From NCBI GenBank assembly GCA_027028225.1, contig JALVJP010000002.1:1-6416 (forward strand): a DNA stretch of 6,416 nucleotides, read 5' to 3'. The stretch's first letter is position 1. Each line of letters starts with the position of its first letter. The notes under the pieces are model-generated. The model was given only the letters and a program-made list of their open reading frames with translations, was not told where the DNA came from and searched no databases. This document shows, piece after piece, positions 866 through 6,387 of this stretch. The DNA comes from Candidatus Parcubacteria bacterium (lineage in GTDB: Bacteria > Patescibacteriota > Minisyncoccia > Phycocordibacterales > UBA1006). The translations under genes were made by a program, and so were the position numbers.

Positions 866-3800
866 CTACACAACTACATTTACAATCTTTCCCTTCACAT
901 AGATGAGCTTCTTGATGTCTTTTCCCTCAATCCACTTTTGCAGTTCTGGGAGTTCTCTCACGAGATTCTTCACCTCTTCCTCTGTTGCATCAGCAGAAAT
1001 GGTGAGCTGTGCGCGAACTTTTCCGTTCACCTGCACAGGGAGTGTGAGTTCACTCTCCTGCATCATTGCTTCGTCATACTTTGGCCAATCGCTGAGGTGA
1101 ATACTTCCCTCGTTTCCTAATACTTCCTGCCAAATTTCCTCTCCTATATGAGGAGCAAATGCGGAAAACATTTTTACAAGGAGTTCGTACTCTGTCTTCC
1201 CTACCCCCTGCTTCTCCATCGTATTCACAAGCGTCATCATAGAGGAGATCGCGGTATTCAACTTCAATCGCTCTACATCTTCTGTCACTTTCTTTATCGT
1301 CTTGTGAGTGAGTTTTACAAGTTCCTCTGGAGATTCTTCTTTAAGGTTATCTCCAAGGCCATACACACGCTCAATGAAACGACGCACCCCTACAACCCCA
1401 TTCGGATCCCATGGGTAATTTCCTGGCTCATTGAACGGTCCAATGAATGCGAGATACATACGCACGGTATCAGCTCCCACTTGTGCAACAACCTCATCAG
1501 GATTGATGACATTCCCTTTTGATTTTGACATCTTTGCACCATCAGGACCAAGGATAAGCCCTCGATTGAGGCGTTGCTTATAAGGTTCTTTCTCCTCAAC
1601 AATTCCAATCTTGTGAAGTGCTTTCACCCAAAAACGAGAGTAGAGGAGGTGCATCGTCGTATGCTCTGCTCCTCCAAAGTAGAGGTCAATCGGCATCCAC
1701 AATCTCCGTTTTTCAAGCCCTGCAAATACCTCATCATTGTGCGGGTCGAGGTAGCGGTAGAAATACCACGAAGAGTCGACGAAGGTATCCATTGTATCAA
1801 TCTCTGGAGTCCAGCCTTCTCCAAAGAGCTCCTCTGTTCGCTTCTTTAATTCTTCAGAACGCGCGAGTGGTGCGGTTCCATCGGGGGTGTGGTCTACATC
1901 TTCTGGGAGTGTCCAAGGGAGGTGCTCTTCAGGAACTGGGTGAGGGTTCCCTTCTGGATCATATACCATCGGAATCGGTGTTCCCCAGTAGCGTTGTCGT
2001 GAAATAGCCCAATCGCGAAGACGATAGGTTTTCACCTTCTTTCCTCCAAGTGCTTCTGTGAGTGCATCACGCGCCTCTTGCGAGGTCATACGAGAGTATG
2101 CTCCGGAGTTAATAAGCTTCCCTTCAAACGCACAAGAGAACCGCTTTCCTTTAGGGAGCACTCCTCCCTGTTCGTGCACTTCATTGAGAAGATCATACAT
2201 TGCATTCCACTCTGCATTAATTTTTTCTTGCCCTTTCTTCCCTTCTCCTGCTTTGAGAATAAATTCATTCTCACCGCTCGTGACGAGTGGACGAGAGTTT
2301 CCTACTTCACCTGCAGAAGGAAGCACAACGAAACGAAACGGAAGATCATACTTGATTGCGAACTCTGCATCGCGCTCATCGTGTGCCGGCACCGCCATCA
2401 CTGCCCCTGTTCCAAAATGAGGAAGTACATAATCAGCAATCCATACCGGAACCTCTTCCCTATTTGCTGGATTTATTGCAGTAACTCCTTTGAGTGGAAC
2501 ACCTGTTTTCGTTTTATCCTGCTGTCGTTCGAGATCGGATTTTTTCTCAACTTCTTTGAGGTATGCTTCTACCTCGTCCCAGTTTTCAATACGATCTTTA
2601 AGCTTTTCCACAAGCGGGTGCTCGGGGGCAAGCACAACATACGTAACACCAAATAAAGTATCTGCTCGCGTAGTGAATACTTTTATTTCCTTCTCTTCTC
2701 CATCTCTTACAAAATTTAATAGCTGCTTAAGTGCAGATACAACGGGTTGCATTTCAAGAAGATAATCTTCTTCTGTTGCTTCGTGGTGGTATTTTCCTGT
2801 GTCCTGAGAATAATAAAGAGAACGAAGTGGAAAGTAAAGGTCAACTTCTCCGTGAATTTCATCGGTCAGCACAATATTCCTCTTTGCTTCACTTATATGT
2901 GTCGTTCCATCCGGCATTACTAATGCCCATTTTTCATACCAATATCCATTAACTTTTCCTCCTTTTTCTTTGATAATATCAATATAGAAATCAAGAATTT
3001 TTTGAGCAATTTCCTCTTGGCTCAAATCTTTTTCATCACTATCACCAAGCGCATTTCGTTTTACGCGTACAGGATCAAGCTCAACACCATCAATAACAAG
3101 CGAAGTATCATTCGCAAGAATAGGTAAATCTGTGTGTTCGCTATATGCCTGTGCTTTTGCAATAGCATTTTCTTCAAGCGTTCCGTCTTCAGCAACATCA
3201 ATATTTTCAATACCAAGTTCTGACGGAGATACTAAATCTACAACTATATTATTTTTTTCAAGAAGTTTCTGCACACGAGCTTTTTTACTCTTGTTGTTCG
3301 TAGCAATGAGGATTTTAACCGGTTCCTTATCCTTACCATTAACAACAACAGGAAAGGAAATTTCACTTCCCTCTTTTCGCCCAATCCATTCTCGTTGTGC
3401 TTGTTTAATAGATTCATCCCAATCAAGCGTGTCTAAATCATCAATAAGTTCATCAGCAAAATCGGTAATCTTAAACGCCCATTGTGTCATATCTTTTTGA
3501 ACCACATCAGAATCACAACGCTCACACTTTCCCGCAACAACCTGCTCATTTGCAAGCACGGTTTTGCAGGAATCACACCAGTTTGCCTTCGTATTCACAC
3601 GCGTAATAATTCCATGCTTGTAGAATTGAATAAACATCCACTGCGTCCACTTGTAGTATTCAGGATCTGCGGTGATAATCATCCGCTCCCAATCGAAGCT
3701 CGCCCCCATTGAATCGAGCTGTTTCCGCATATACTCGATGTTCTTGTAAGTCCAATCCTTCGGATTGAGCCCACGTTTAATCGCAGCATTTTCAGCAGGA

Positions 3801-4051
3801 AGCCCAAAAGCATCAAAGCCCATCGGATAGAGCACGTTGTATCCACTCATTCGCTTGAAGCGCGCATAAATATCCGGCACTGCAAATGCATACCAGTGTC
3901 CCACGTGGAGATTTCCAGATGGATACGCAAACTCAGAGAGAGTATAAAAGTTTTCCTTTCCATCCACTTTATCCTCTGTGCGGTAAATATTGTGCTTCTT
4001 CCAATATTCCTGCCACTTCTTTTCAATTTCCTGTGCGTCGTAATGTTTCAT
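866..4051 (-). CDS. leuS: leucyl-tRNA synthetase with an inserted RdgB/HAM1-like domain
   Basis: This cytoplasmic class I synthetase charges tRNA-Leu with leucine using ATP. Visible motifs are HVGH (49-52, the HIGH signature), a zinc site with Cys159, Cys162, Cys176 and Cys179, the editing motif TTRADT (460-465), HDERD (557-561, the conserved editing aspartate), YRLRDW (676-681), DSSWYFYRY (759-767), KMSKS (840-844), and a C-terminal VNGKVRAQL (1008-1016). The family is usually about 860 residues and this protein has 1061. Residues about 245-447 are an RdgB/HAM1-like domain inserted in the hairpin that begins CP1. CP1 also has about 45 extra residues near 580-640, and the leucine-specific domain before KMSKS is absent. 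The start ATG at 4051 fits the family N-terminus (KHYDAQEIEKKWQEYW). AAGGGG stands only 2 bases upstream, too close for a normal ribosome site. The gene ends in TAG. The synthetase identity is certain; whether it still edits is not. Confidence 0.97.
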   Translation of the reverse strand: MKHYDAQEIEKKWQEYWKKHNIYRTEDKVDGKENFYTLSEFAYPSGNLHVGHWYAFAVPDIYARFKRMSGYNVLYPMGFDAFGLPAENAAIKRGLNPKDWTYKNIEYMRKQLDSMGASFDWERMIITADPEYYKWTQWMFIQFYKHGIITRVNTKANWCDSCKTVLANEQVVAGKCERCDSDVVQKDMTQWAFKITDFADELIDDLDTLDWDESIKQAQREWIGRKEGSEISFPVVVNGKDKEPVKILIATNNKSKKARVQKLLEKNNIVVDLVSPSELGIENIDVAEDGTLEENAIAKAQAYSEHTDLPILANDTSLVIDGVELDPVRVKRNALGDSDEKDLSQEEIAQKILDFYIDIIKEKGGKVNGYWYEKWALVMPDGTTHISEAKRNIVLTDEIHGEVDLYFPLRSLYYSQDTGKYHHEATEEDYLLEMQPVVSALKQLLNFVRDGEEKEIKVFTTRADTLFGVTYVVLAPEHPLVEKLKDRIENWDEVEAYLKEVEKKSDLERQQDKTKTGVPLKGVTAINPANREEVPVWIADYVLPHFGTGAVMAVPAHDERDAEFAIKYDLPFRFVVLPSAGEVGNSRPLVTSGENEFILKAGEGKKGQEKINAEWNAMYDLLNEVHEQGGVLPKGKRFSCAFEGKLINSGAYSRMTSQEARDALTEALGGKKVKTYRLRDWAISRQRYWGTPIPMVYDPEGNPHPVPEEHLPWTLPEDVDHTPDGTAPLARSEELKKRTEELFGEGWTPEIDTMDTFVDSSWYFYRYLDPHNDEVFAGLEKRRLWMPIDLYFGGAEHTTMHLLYSRFWVKALHKIGIVEEKEPYKQRLNRGLILGPDGAKMSKSKGNVINPDEVVAQVGADTVRMYLAFIGPFNEPGNYPWDPNGVVGVRRFIERVYGLGDNLKEESPEELVKLTHKTIKKVTEDVERLKLNTAISSMMTLVNTMEKQGVGKTEYELLVKMFSAFAPHIGEEIWQEVLGNEGSIHLSDWPKYDEAMMQESELTLPVQVNGKVRAQLTISADATEEEVKNLVRELPELQKWIEGKDIKKLIYVKGKIVNVVV
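2711..3319 (-). other. RdgB/HAM1 (ITPase)-like domain inserted within LeuRS, residues about 245-447
   Basis: RdgB/HAM1 enzymes hydrolyse ITP, XTP and their deoxy forms to monophosphates. The insert opens with VKILIATNNKSKK (245-257), matching the family's xxxATGNxxK phosphate-binding start. EDGTLEENAIAKA (288-300) matches the ETGxTFxENAxxKA segment. LPILANDTSLVIDG (309-322) matches LPxxADDSGLxVD, with Asp315 at the catalytic aspartate. The end (SALKQLLNF, 439-447) matches the family's last helix. Differences are ADDSG changed to ANDTS, no GFGYDP motif and no SHR triplet, so substrate recognition is probably altered or lost. The split synthetase hairpin resumes at KEIKVFTTRADT (454-465). G+C in the insert is about 36%, against 46-47% in sampled leuS DNA on both sides. 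The fold assignment is by eye and fairly firm; activity is unknown. Confidence 0.85.
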
Positions 4052-5442: not shown

Positions 5443-6387
5443 CTAAGTGTGTAGCTCGAATACTTTTTTGGTTAAAATCAAATCACAATCTATAAAAATT
5501 TTTTGATATTCAAAATCTGTTTTTGTTTCTCTACATCTCGCGAGGTTTTCCTTACAATAGGTATACAATTGATTTCTAACTTTTTTATTAAGAACTGTAT
5601 CAACAGCCTTTTGAAAATCTTTCTTTTCAATTGCATCAAGTACCACATCTCTATTACCACCATTAAGTATAAAAAGTATCTCTGGTAATCTTTTTGTACT
5701 TCTCTTGATATCTCCAAATGGATAGTGGTGTGAAGTGAAATAATCTTGAAAATCGTCCACAATCTGCCTATTAATCCCAAGTAGTTCTCCTATAAGACTT
5801 ATCTTTTCGTCTGGGTCCTTACCTGCAAGCAATTGACCAATTTCGAGACCGTATCGTATGTGCCCACCAGTAAATTTTTTCACCATTAGAAAATACTTAT
5901 CAAGTGTTTCTTTTGTTATAAAACTACTTTTTTCTAGTTCTTTATCTATCTTTTGTCCCTCATAAATTCCACGTATATAATTATCGTTAAATATTTTTAA
6001 GATTTTATATCCAAAAATTGGAGAAAGCTTACGTATTTCAATTAAACTTATCAAAGCACTAAGTCCATTAATTTCATCTAGTCTTGCATTGATAATTGTA
6101 TTCTCTACGCCATCGATAAGATAAATACACTTACTCCCATTTCTCTCCTGCTCATTATCTAAAATATCATCTATCTTTATAATTGAAGTATCTATATCAG
6201 AAATATTCCTTAGTAAAATTAATTCACTATCGGTAAACTTTCTCCCAGAAGCATATTCGAAGCCAACAGAAATGTAATATTCAAATGACTTATCTTTCGG
6301 TTGATATCCCATAATATTCTTACTATACAGAAAAATTAAAAAAACAACTACTTCATAAAAATTTTCCAAACAAATATCTCCCATCAA
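5443..6387 (-). CDS. polyprenyl synthetase family protein, divergent, possibly 5'-incomplete
   Basis: Trans-prenyl diphosphate synthases extend allylic diphosphates with isopentenyl diphosphate. Both aspartate-rich, magnesium-binding motifs are present: DDILD (73-77, followed by NEQERNG) and DDFQD (211-215, preceded by RQIV and followed by GDIKRSTKRLPEIL). GQKID (144-148) and FTGGHIRYGLEIGQLLAG (172-189) match other family regions. The IPP-binding GKRxRP near the N-terminus is not recognisable, and the second arginine pattern after the first motif is weakened (ERN instead of RRG). The first in-frame start here is TTG at 6387, directly followed by ATG at 6384, with another ATG at 6312. The frame stays open to the window edge at 6416. 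The usual family N-terminus is somewhat longer, so the true start may lie outside. Sampled G+C is about 25%, far below leuS. The product chain length cannot be told. Confidence 0.75.
   Translation of the reverse strand: MMGDICLENFYEVVVFLIFLYSKNIMGYQPKDKSFEYYISVGFEYASGRKFTDSELILLRNISDIDTSIIKIDDILDNEQERNGSKCIYLIDGVENTIINARLDEINGLSALISLIEIRKLSPIFGYKILKIFNDNYIRGIYEGQKIDKELEKSSFITKETLDKYFLMVKKFTGGHIRYGLEIGQLLAGKDPDEKISLIGELLGINRQIVDDFQDYFTSHHYPFGDIKRSTKRLPEILFILNGGNRDVVLDAIEKKDFQKAVDTVLNKKVRNQLYTYCKENLARCRETKTDFEYQKIFIDCDLILTKKVFELHT

Follow-up and report, generated by a model that had tools for sequence, protein, structure and literature searches.

Why does a leucyl-tRNA synthetase (LeuRS) carry the fold of another enzyme at the mouth of its editing domain? 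The question is raised by the window analysed here, a stretch of 6,416 nucleotides from a Candidatus Parcubacteria bacterium, in which the original prediction had described one uninterrupted LeuRS frame of 1061 residues. The frame is borne out: it occupies positions 866-4051 of the minus strand and matches the LeuRS profile TIGR00396 with 901 bits, above the equivalog cut-off of 548.4. The protein has both the HVGH and the KMSKS motifs, and shares its catalytic, editing and anticodon-binding parts with other bacterial LeuRS (TIGR00396; PDB 1h3n, 5ah5, 4aq7). It differs from them by a 205-residue enzyme domain added on the CP1 entrance hairpin, where the alignment to the LeuRS of T. thermophilus shows zero extra residues in the latter. 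In the full-length model this guest, residues 245-449, is flanked by the host strands 226-237 and 455-460 (Table 1). Of the extent first proposed for the insert, 2711-3319, the end at 3319 stands, and the model puts the other end at 2705. The CP1 core downstream keeps the editing motifs TTRADT (460-465), GTG (547-549) and HDERD (557-561). In a profile search of the draft genome, the leuS frame gave a strong editing-domain match (167 bits), and the only other match, in a frame of 764 residues, was weak (20.5 bits, 25.9 with its neighbours).

Table 1. Features of leuS in the window (residues are numbered along the 1061-residue protein).
Feature	Position in the window	Strand	Basis
leuS, LeuRS with embedded Ham1 domain, 1061 aa	866..4051 (stop codon included)	minus	single uninterrupted ORF
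Upstream side of site A: host strand 226-237, which forms the first arm of the hairpin leading into CP1	3341..3376	minus	model and junctions
Ham1/ITPase-fold guest domain, residues 245-449	2705..3319	minus	full-length model
TNNKSK, residues 251-256	3284..3301	minus	RdgB alignment
E288 (RdgB E41 equivalent)	3188..3190	minus	RdgB alignment
ENAIAKA, residues 294-300; K299 = RdgB K53 equivalent	3152..3172	minus	RdgB alignment
NDTS, residues 314-317; D315 = RdgB D69 equivalent	3101..3112	minus	RdgB alignment
FPLRSLY, residues 407-413, subfamily motif	2813..2833	minus	comparison with relatives
CP1 editing core, residues 455-578	2318..2689	minus	Pfam tRNA-synt_1_2 (PF13603), E 1e-52
Site B region, residues 576-660	2072..2326	minus	84-residue connector in the window protein

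The insert passed the gathering score of the Pfam profile Ham1p_like (PF01725; E 1.5e-11, 45.0 bits against 22.5), in agreement with the original prediction. This match was confined to positions 1-85 of the 186 of the profile, i.e., to the first half of the insert; in the second half, the sequence has diverged beyond what Pfam recognises. The NCBIfam profile PRK14822 extended over insert residues 2-176, and structure prediction followed by PDB comparison gave a Ham1 fold across the entire insert. For the full-length model, the 50 PDB matches listed were all LeuRS chains, as a single dominant host would lead one to expect; the isolated domain was therefore modelled and compared separately. In the full-length model it forms the separate Ham1-fold domain between host strands that had been anticipated. 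This predicted fold speaks against an intein or another self-splicing element, which we had considered. The insert missed the equivalog cut-off of TIGR00042 by a wide margin (38.3 against 145.35 bits).

The enzymes of the RdgB/ITPA/HAM1 group are free dimers, and GFGYDPxF and SHR are the base-recognition motifs of RdgB. The guest differs from these free-standing pyrophosphatases (PF01725; PDB 1k7k, 2pyu, 3tqu, 1b78) in being inserted in a synthetase, in having N314 in place of RdgB D68, in a P-x-R-x-x-Y motif (FPLRSLY in the window) at the canonical position of GFGYDPxF, and in the absence of the SHR triplet, where the window has MQP. The ALKQLL segment previously read as the end of an RdgB fold is at the right position; the two RdgB motifs that should precede it are the missing ones. 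Queried against 5.8 billion proteins, the insert retrieved 19. Eighteen (P0021-P0038) are free-standing, have 200-220 residues, are 41-53% identical over 98-100% of the insert, and share with it both the P-x-R-x-x-Y motif and the lack of SHR. The 19th (P0039) is a weaker match and a canonical-looking Ham1. By these sequence comparisons, the guest is a member of a divergent Ham1 subfamily together with its 18 free-standing relatives.

The guest is the sole Ham1 match in its own draft genome, which is 81% complete, so that a second Ham1 could be missed. Among 21 genomes with an embedded copy (visible only with the subfamily profile in G042 and G050), 18 had no Ham1 besides it, the exceptions being G276, G694 and G481. 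This favours reading the guest as a captured, predicted-active Ham1 NTP pyrophosphatase, in which case LeuRS would carry the only such enzyme of the cell; we give this reading a probability of about 0.6. The guest would split a nucleoside triphosphate into monophosphate and pyrophosphate, D315 being the putative general base, and the host would keep charging and editing tRNA-Leu alongside it. Because the base-side motifs GFGYDPxF and SHR are replaced, the base specificity is probably unlike that of RdgB. The hairpin tip would accept folded domains with closely spaced ends, so that free-standing house-cleaning genes, some of them adjoining leuS, could have been captured repeatedly and exchanged between leuS genes. 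A PF01725 match was absent from 51 of the 61 genomes of the relatives sample (which includes the window's own), two of which, G042 and G050, have a divergent Ham1 in LeuRS; the activity thus seems not to be generally needed there.

A search for the same insertion in other LeuRS found it on other contigs, for a total of 95 protein clusters, the window's included. Named carriers include Kaiserbacteria, Jorgensenbacteria, Nomurabacteria, Portnoybacteria, Dojkabacteria, Parcubacteria and Paceibacterota. The Ham1 guest was at the hairpin (site A) in 92 of them and at site B in one (P0008); the remaining two are N-terminally cut. Site A, taken as everything from residue 236 to residue 455 of the host, was measured in 55 of 60 relatives (G008, G032, G051 and G054, where an anchor is missing, and G025 are omitted): 16 had 135-315 extra residues, and 39 had 2-35, i.e., an empty site. 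Within the genus, the site holds Ham1 in the window, G001 and G011, an RBBP9-like serine hydrolase in G002, one Nudix domain in G003, G006, G007 and G009, and two in G004 and G010; it is empty in G005 and cut by the contig in G008. Outside the genus, we found the serine hydrolase (G022, G052, G056), a divergent Ham1 (G050, 22.6 bits; G042, subfamily profile only), a DUF559 domain (G017) and a 135-residue insert without an assigned family (G028). These Pfam assignments were made on excised inserts for G002, G003, G004, G009, G010, G011, G017, G022, G028, G042, G050 and G056, and inside whole leuS frames for G001, G052, G006 and G007. A weak PF06821 match in a 1097-residue frame of G050 was set aside, as its 18.6 bits are below the cut-off. 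The identical two host positions bound every site-A guest in the junction listing, and the frame is conserved. Hence, profile, fold, relatives and junctions support the proposed capture of a house-cleaning NTPase fold at the mouth of CP1. The picture of a single odd insertion is too narrow, since domains of several enzyme families recur at this hairpin.

Two relatives lack the CP1 editing domain: the LeuRS frames of G032 (C5:4478-6358, locus L055, 644 residues) and G054 (C4:53009-54616, locus L077, 555 residues) jump from about host residue 225 to about 670.

Site B also takes guests in some relatives, either Nudix or serine-hydrolase domains. Among the 95 Ham1-bearing LeuRS, 38 had an additional Nudix domain at site B according to our own profile and 35 had a PF00293 match. 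The profile contained LeuRS flanks and a Nudix call therefore needs at least 130 residues; of the 38 calls, the 35 with PF00293 are safe. The profile-called domains without PF00293 are in P0057, which shows a nucleotidyltransferase (PF10706), P0068 and P0082. An RBBP9-like hydrolase was found at site B or C in 17 of the 95, all with PF06821. The three enzymes occur together in nine LeuRS (1344-1381 residues in the eight complete ones), with PF00293 and PF06821 found for all nine. Of the 38 Nudix-called proteins, 31 contain the Nudix box, and 12 of the 17 proteins with an RBBP9-like guest contain GHSxG, both patterns being counted anywhere in the protein. In the 1795-residue LeuRS of G438, site A contains a HAD and a Ham1 domain, site B a Nudix domain and site C another Ham1, with a nucleotidyltransferase beyond.

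Eleven genomes of family f90 encode a canonical Ham1 elsewhere in LeuRS, after the KMSKS part and ahead of the anticodon-binding domain. Pfam covers at least 184 of its 186 profile positions in all 11, and the motifs ADDSGL, GFGYDPIF and DHR were seen in the two genomes inspected. The f90 domain is a separate capture at a different LeuRS site. In Gracilibacteria, Nudix-like and Ham1 stretches lie in leuS site A at L108:1336-3210 and L263 (G511), in a frame interrupted even under code 25.

The Ham1-in-LeuRS trait is rare. The subfamily profile matched in 65 of 383 genomes of the class sample and 101 of 379 of the phylum sample, mostly in free-standing frames of about 200 residues. The window type within LeuRS was found in two of the class genomes (its own and G146) and five of the phylum genomes (its own, G694, G438, G769 and G481), and the f90 type in 11 of the 383 class genomes; G511 is excluded from these counts, since its Ham1 and LeuRS pieces are on separate or broken contig ends. 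There were 17 different subfamily-matching frames longer than 700 residues, 16 of them LeuRS and one a fusion in G779 (L261:1023-3290, 756 residues), in which Ham1 precedes an IMP dehydrogenase-like part. The 766-residue Ham1 frame of G694 may be of the same type. Nudix matches in frames longer than 600 residues (14 in 11 of the 21 genomes scanned) were all in leuS. The serine hydrolase is not limited to LeuRS, and starts proteins of 560-660 residues in G012, G016, G018 and G019. RBBP9-like-headed proteins are encoded at L234:1429-3405, L235:2-1693, L236:2463-4157 and L237:1669-3468; in the two scanned, L234 and L236 (G016 and G019), no Pfam family was matched in the remaining 400 or so residues.

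This near-exclusive choice of long host might mean that the guest serves the synthetase itself, clearing a LeuRS by-product (candidates are a damaged ATP analogue, an aminoacyl-adenylate or a dinucleoside polyphosphate) or assisting editing, with the Nudix and RBBP9-like guests in parallel roles. The capture of two Ham1 types at different LeuRS sites, the nine stacks and the free-standing Ham1 genes that adjoin leuS in some genomes (see below) are in line with such a role. So is what is reported of human RBBP9 (PMC8866121): it traps Leu/Ile, Met, Phe, Tyr and Trp, and its proposed activity is the cleavage of amide, ester or thioester bonds that involve hydrophobic amino acids. Such a reaction resembles the one by which wrong amino acids are taken off tRNA. 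We nevertheless regard this role as unlikely. The free-standing subfamily has the same active-site residues without LeuRS, the DUF559, HAD and nucleotidyltransferase guests do not fit a single pathway, the host has its own editing motifs, and most of the relatives measured do without any guest at site A.

The reading of the guest as an active pyrophosphatase depends on its active site. In the alignment to RdgB (numbered by our own count), K256, N253, E288, K299 and D315 correspond to K13, N10, E41, K53 and D69. E41 and D69 count among the triphosphate-site and catalytic residues of RdgB, D69 being the proposed general base. E288, N295, K299, D315, R332 and P408 are kept in all of the 95 embedded domains, i.e., in all LeuRS protein clusters found with a Ham1 guest; N253, K256 and R391 are kept in 94, the single domain without K256 or N253 having a gap there. 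The subfamily motif is nearly as constant (P408 in 95, R410 and Y413 in 92 each). The nine positions from E288 to R391 named first are also invariant among 31 free-standing proteins and 21 inserts, in a comparison that left out G042, G050, P0008 and P0039. R332 is a candidate equivalent of RdgB R87, in a region where the alignment is ambiguous. K13, K53 and R87 of RdgB make up the triphosphate site (PMC3899018), and activity is abolished by a change of K13 and reduced by a change of N10 (PMC8893687).

Could catalysis have been lost, leaving a nucleotide-binding regulator or a structural spacer? The equivalents of RdgB D68, GFGYDPxF and SHR are gone and Pfam matches just half of the domain, as this would predict. 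Yet E288, K299 and D315 in all, and K256 in all but one, of the 95 domains persist although embedded copies are as little as 34% identical to P0019, and we consider the loss of catalysis quite improbable. The conservation pattern looks like that of a working active site; it does not identify the substrate. A purely structural role, one of the options of the original prediction, is made unlikely by these near-invariant residues. With N314 for D68, an unsure R87 equivalent, and both base-recognition motifs missing, the substrate of a predicted-active guest may not be a non-canonical purine NTP.

The guest and its host have different histories. In a LeuRS core tree of 75 rows, built with a quick method and without G008, G032, G051, G054 and G025, Ham1 needs 11 changes, eight of them forced by well-supported branches, and empty and filled hairpins alternate with 19 changes. 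A single clade of Ham1 hosts was rejected (AU p 2e-39, on a 38-row host-core subset chosen afterwards), which speaks against the guest having arisen in LeuRS just once and been inherited vertically. One clade of inserts is, however, not rejected when the Ham1 tree is taken by itself (p 0.21), so the guest may have been captured from free-standing genes once or several times. The insert tree groups the window with P0002, G011 and P0003 (support 99/97), and the host core rejects a clade of the window, G001, P0002, G011 and P0003 (AU p 1e-9). In the host core, P0003 is the sister of P0014 (98/96), and their inserts as sisters are rejected (p 7e-5). An insert clade of the window, P0002 and G011 without P0003 is not rejected (p 0.19), so P0003 may be a sister rather than nested. 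The groupings for these AU tests were picked after the trees were seen.

Some free-standing genes are well placed for capture. We checked 19 different free-standing Ham1 loci for leuS (L093-L107, L052, L249, L252 and L253), several of which had less than 4 kb on one side. Four have a leuS with an empty site A on the Ham1 strand, beginning 0.2-1.5 kb downstream of the Ham1 gene: L093 (Candidatus Uhrbacteria), L096 (bacterium), L097 (Patescibacteria group bacterium) and L253 (G464), against a chance expectation estimated at about 0.15 for some 8 kb seen in genomes near 1 Mb; L096 and L097 share a common gene order and are not independent. G464 belongs to family f153, where G481 has Nudix and Ham1 inside site A. 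Elsewhere, free-standing Ham1 genes neighbour RBBP9-like hydrolases (L103, L052) or Nudix (L100). Locus L052:464-2540 (G029) is a cluster of genes for DUF84 (ITPase-type), an RBBP9-like hydrolase, a free-standing Ham1 and PNPOx.

So mobile a set of guests could be neutral, the hairpin being a tolerant, recombination-prone place that fills without benefit. The great diversity of guests at one junction, the DUF559 cassette of G017 included, and the alternation of empty and filled sites fit this. We think it very unlikely, because guest active sites are conserved over the long term (most Nudix- and RBBP9-bearing proteins have the expected box or GHSxG), the assigned guests are mostly small enzyme domains, and the embedded copy is usually the only Ham1 of its genome. 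In G017 the DUF559 cassette lies in frame in leuS site A (L040:487-961) between 43-nt inverted repeats with 93% complementarity; these might represent a mobile-element route into the hairpin.

That the insert is an assembly or binning chimera, a concern raised from the start, can be dismissed, as it recurs with frame and junction conserved in two more genomes of the genus (G001, with a 97% identical LeuRS, and G011, with a 72% identical one) and in 95 LeuRS clusters in all.

With the guest as a probable captured pyrophosphatase, a wider and more tentative reading is that the LeuRS of Patescibacteria is a modular clean-up hub, which would combine repeated capture, protective guests and the exchange of cassettes. 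Captures would have occurred at four or more sites and involved two Ham1 subfamilies, Nudix and RBBP9-like amino-acid hydrolases, joined in the 1795-residue protein by a HAD phosphatase and a nucleotidyltransferase. The guests might protect leucine charging from damaged nucleotides, from by-products of the dinucleotide type and from wrong aminoacyl esters, and might pass from one leuS gene to another as cassettes, whatever the sequence of the host.

The HAM1 of ipomoviruses is a polyprotein neighbour of the polymerase, and the insertional domains of bacterial RNA polymerase are not known to be enzymatic. Additions to synthetases are already known. Among the literature matches listed, which cover neither subscription papers nor preprints, no synthetase insertion of the Ham1-in-LeuRS kind was described, nor any essential synthetase whose editing domain contains an inserted metabolic enzyme domain, with other enzyme domains in its place in further species of the genus. 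Ipomovirus HAM1 is likewise a Ham1-type pyrophosphatase partly kept covalently bound to an information-processing enzyme, but this is a viral RNA polymerase and HAM1 is not inserted within another domain (PMC8893687). The methionyl-tRNA synthetase of Mycoplasma penetrans likewise joins a metabolic enzyme, an aminotransferase, to a synthetase in a reduced genome, but as an N-terminal appendage that supplies the amino acid, outside the editing domain (PMC7694997, PMC13215547). Bacterial RNA polymerase has lineage-specific insertions in an essential machine, in another host (PMC11515920). In its passages on the LeuRS editing domain, PMC13114784 presents this domain as a module that was itself inserted, not as a host for guests.

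LeuRS seems to have turned into a platform on which captured enzymes are mounted. This suggests a way in which very small genomes might retain house-cleaning activities, namely by attaching them to an indispensable protein. It also shows, by natural example, at which places a large enzyme tolerates the insertion of entire folded domains, and makes a physical coupling of nucleotide and aminoacyl quality control to tRNA charging directly testable. The fusions are an annotation hazard, as the LeuRS P0050 and P0077 are publicly named 'non-canonical purine NTP pyrophosphatase'. Elsewhere in the window, a polyprenyl synthetase-like frame (PF00348, E 5e-18) lies at its end (5443-6387, minus strand), and several imperfect inverted repeats with arms of 18-35 nt lie at its left end (90-507).
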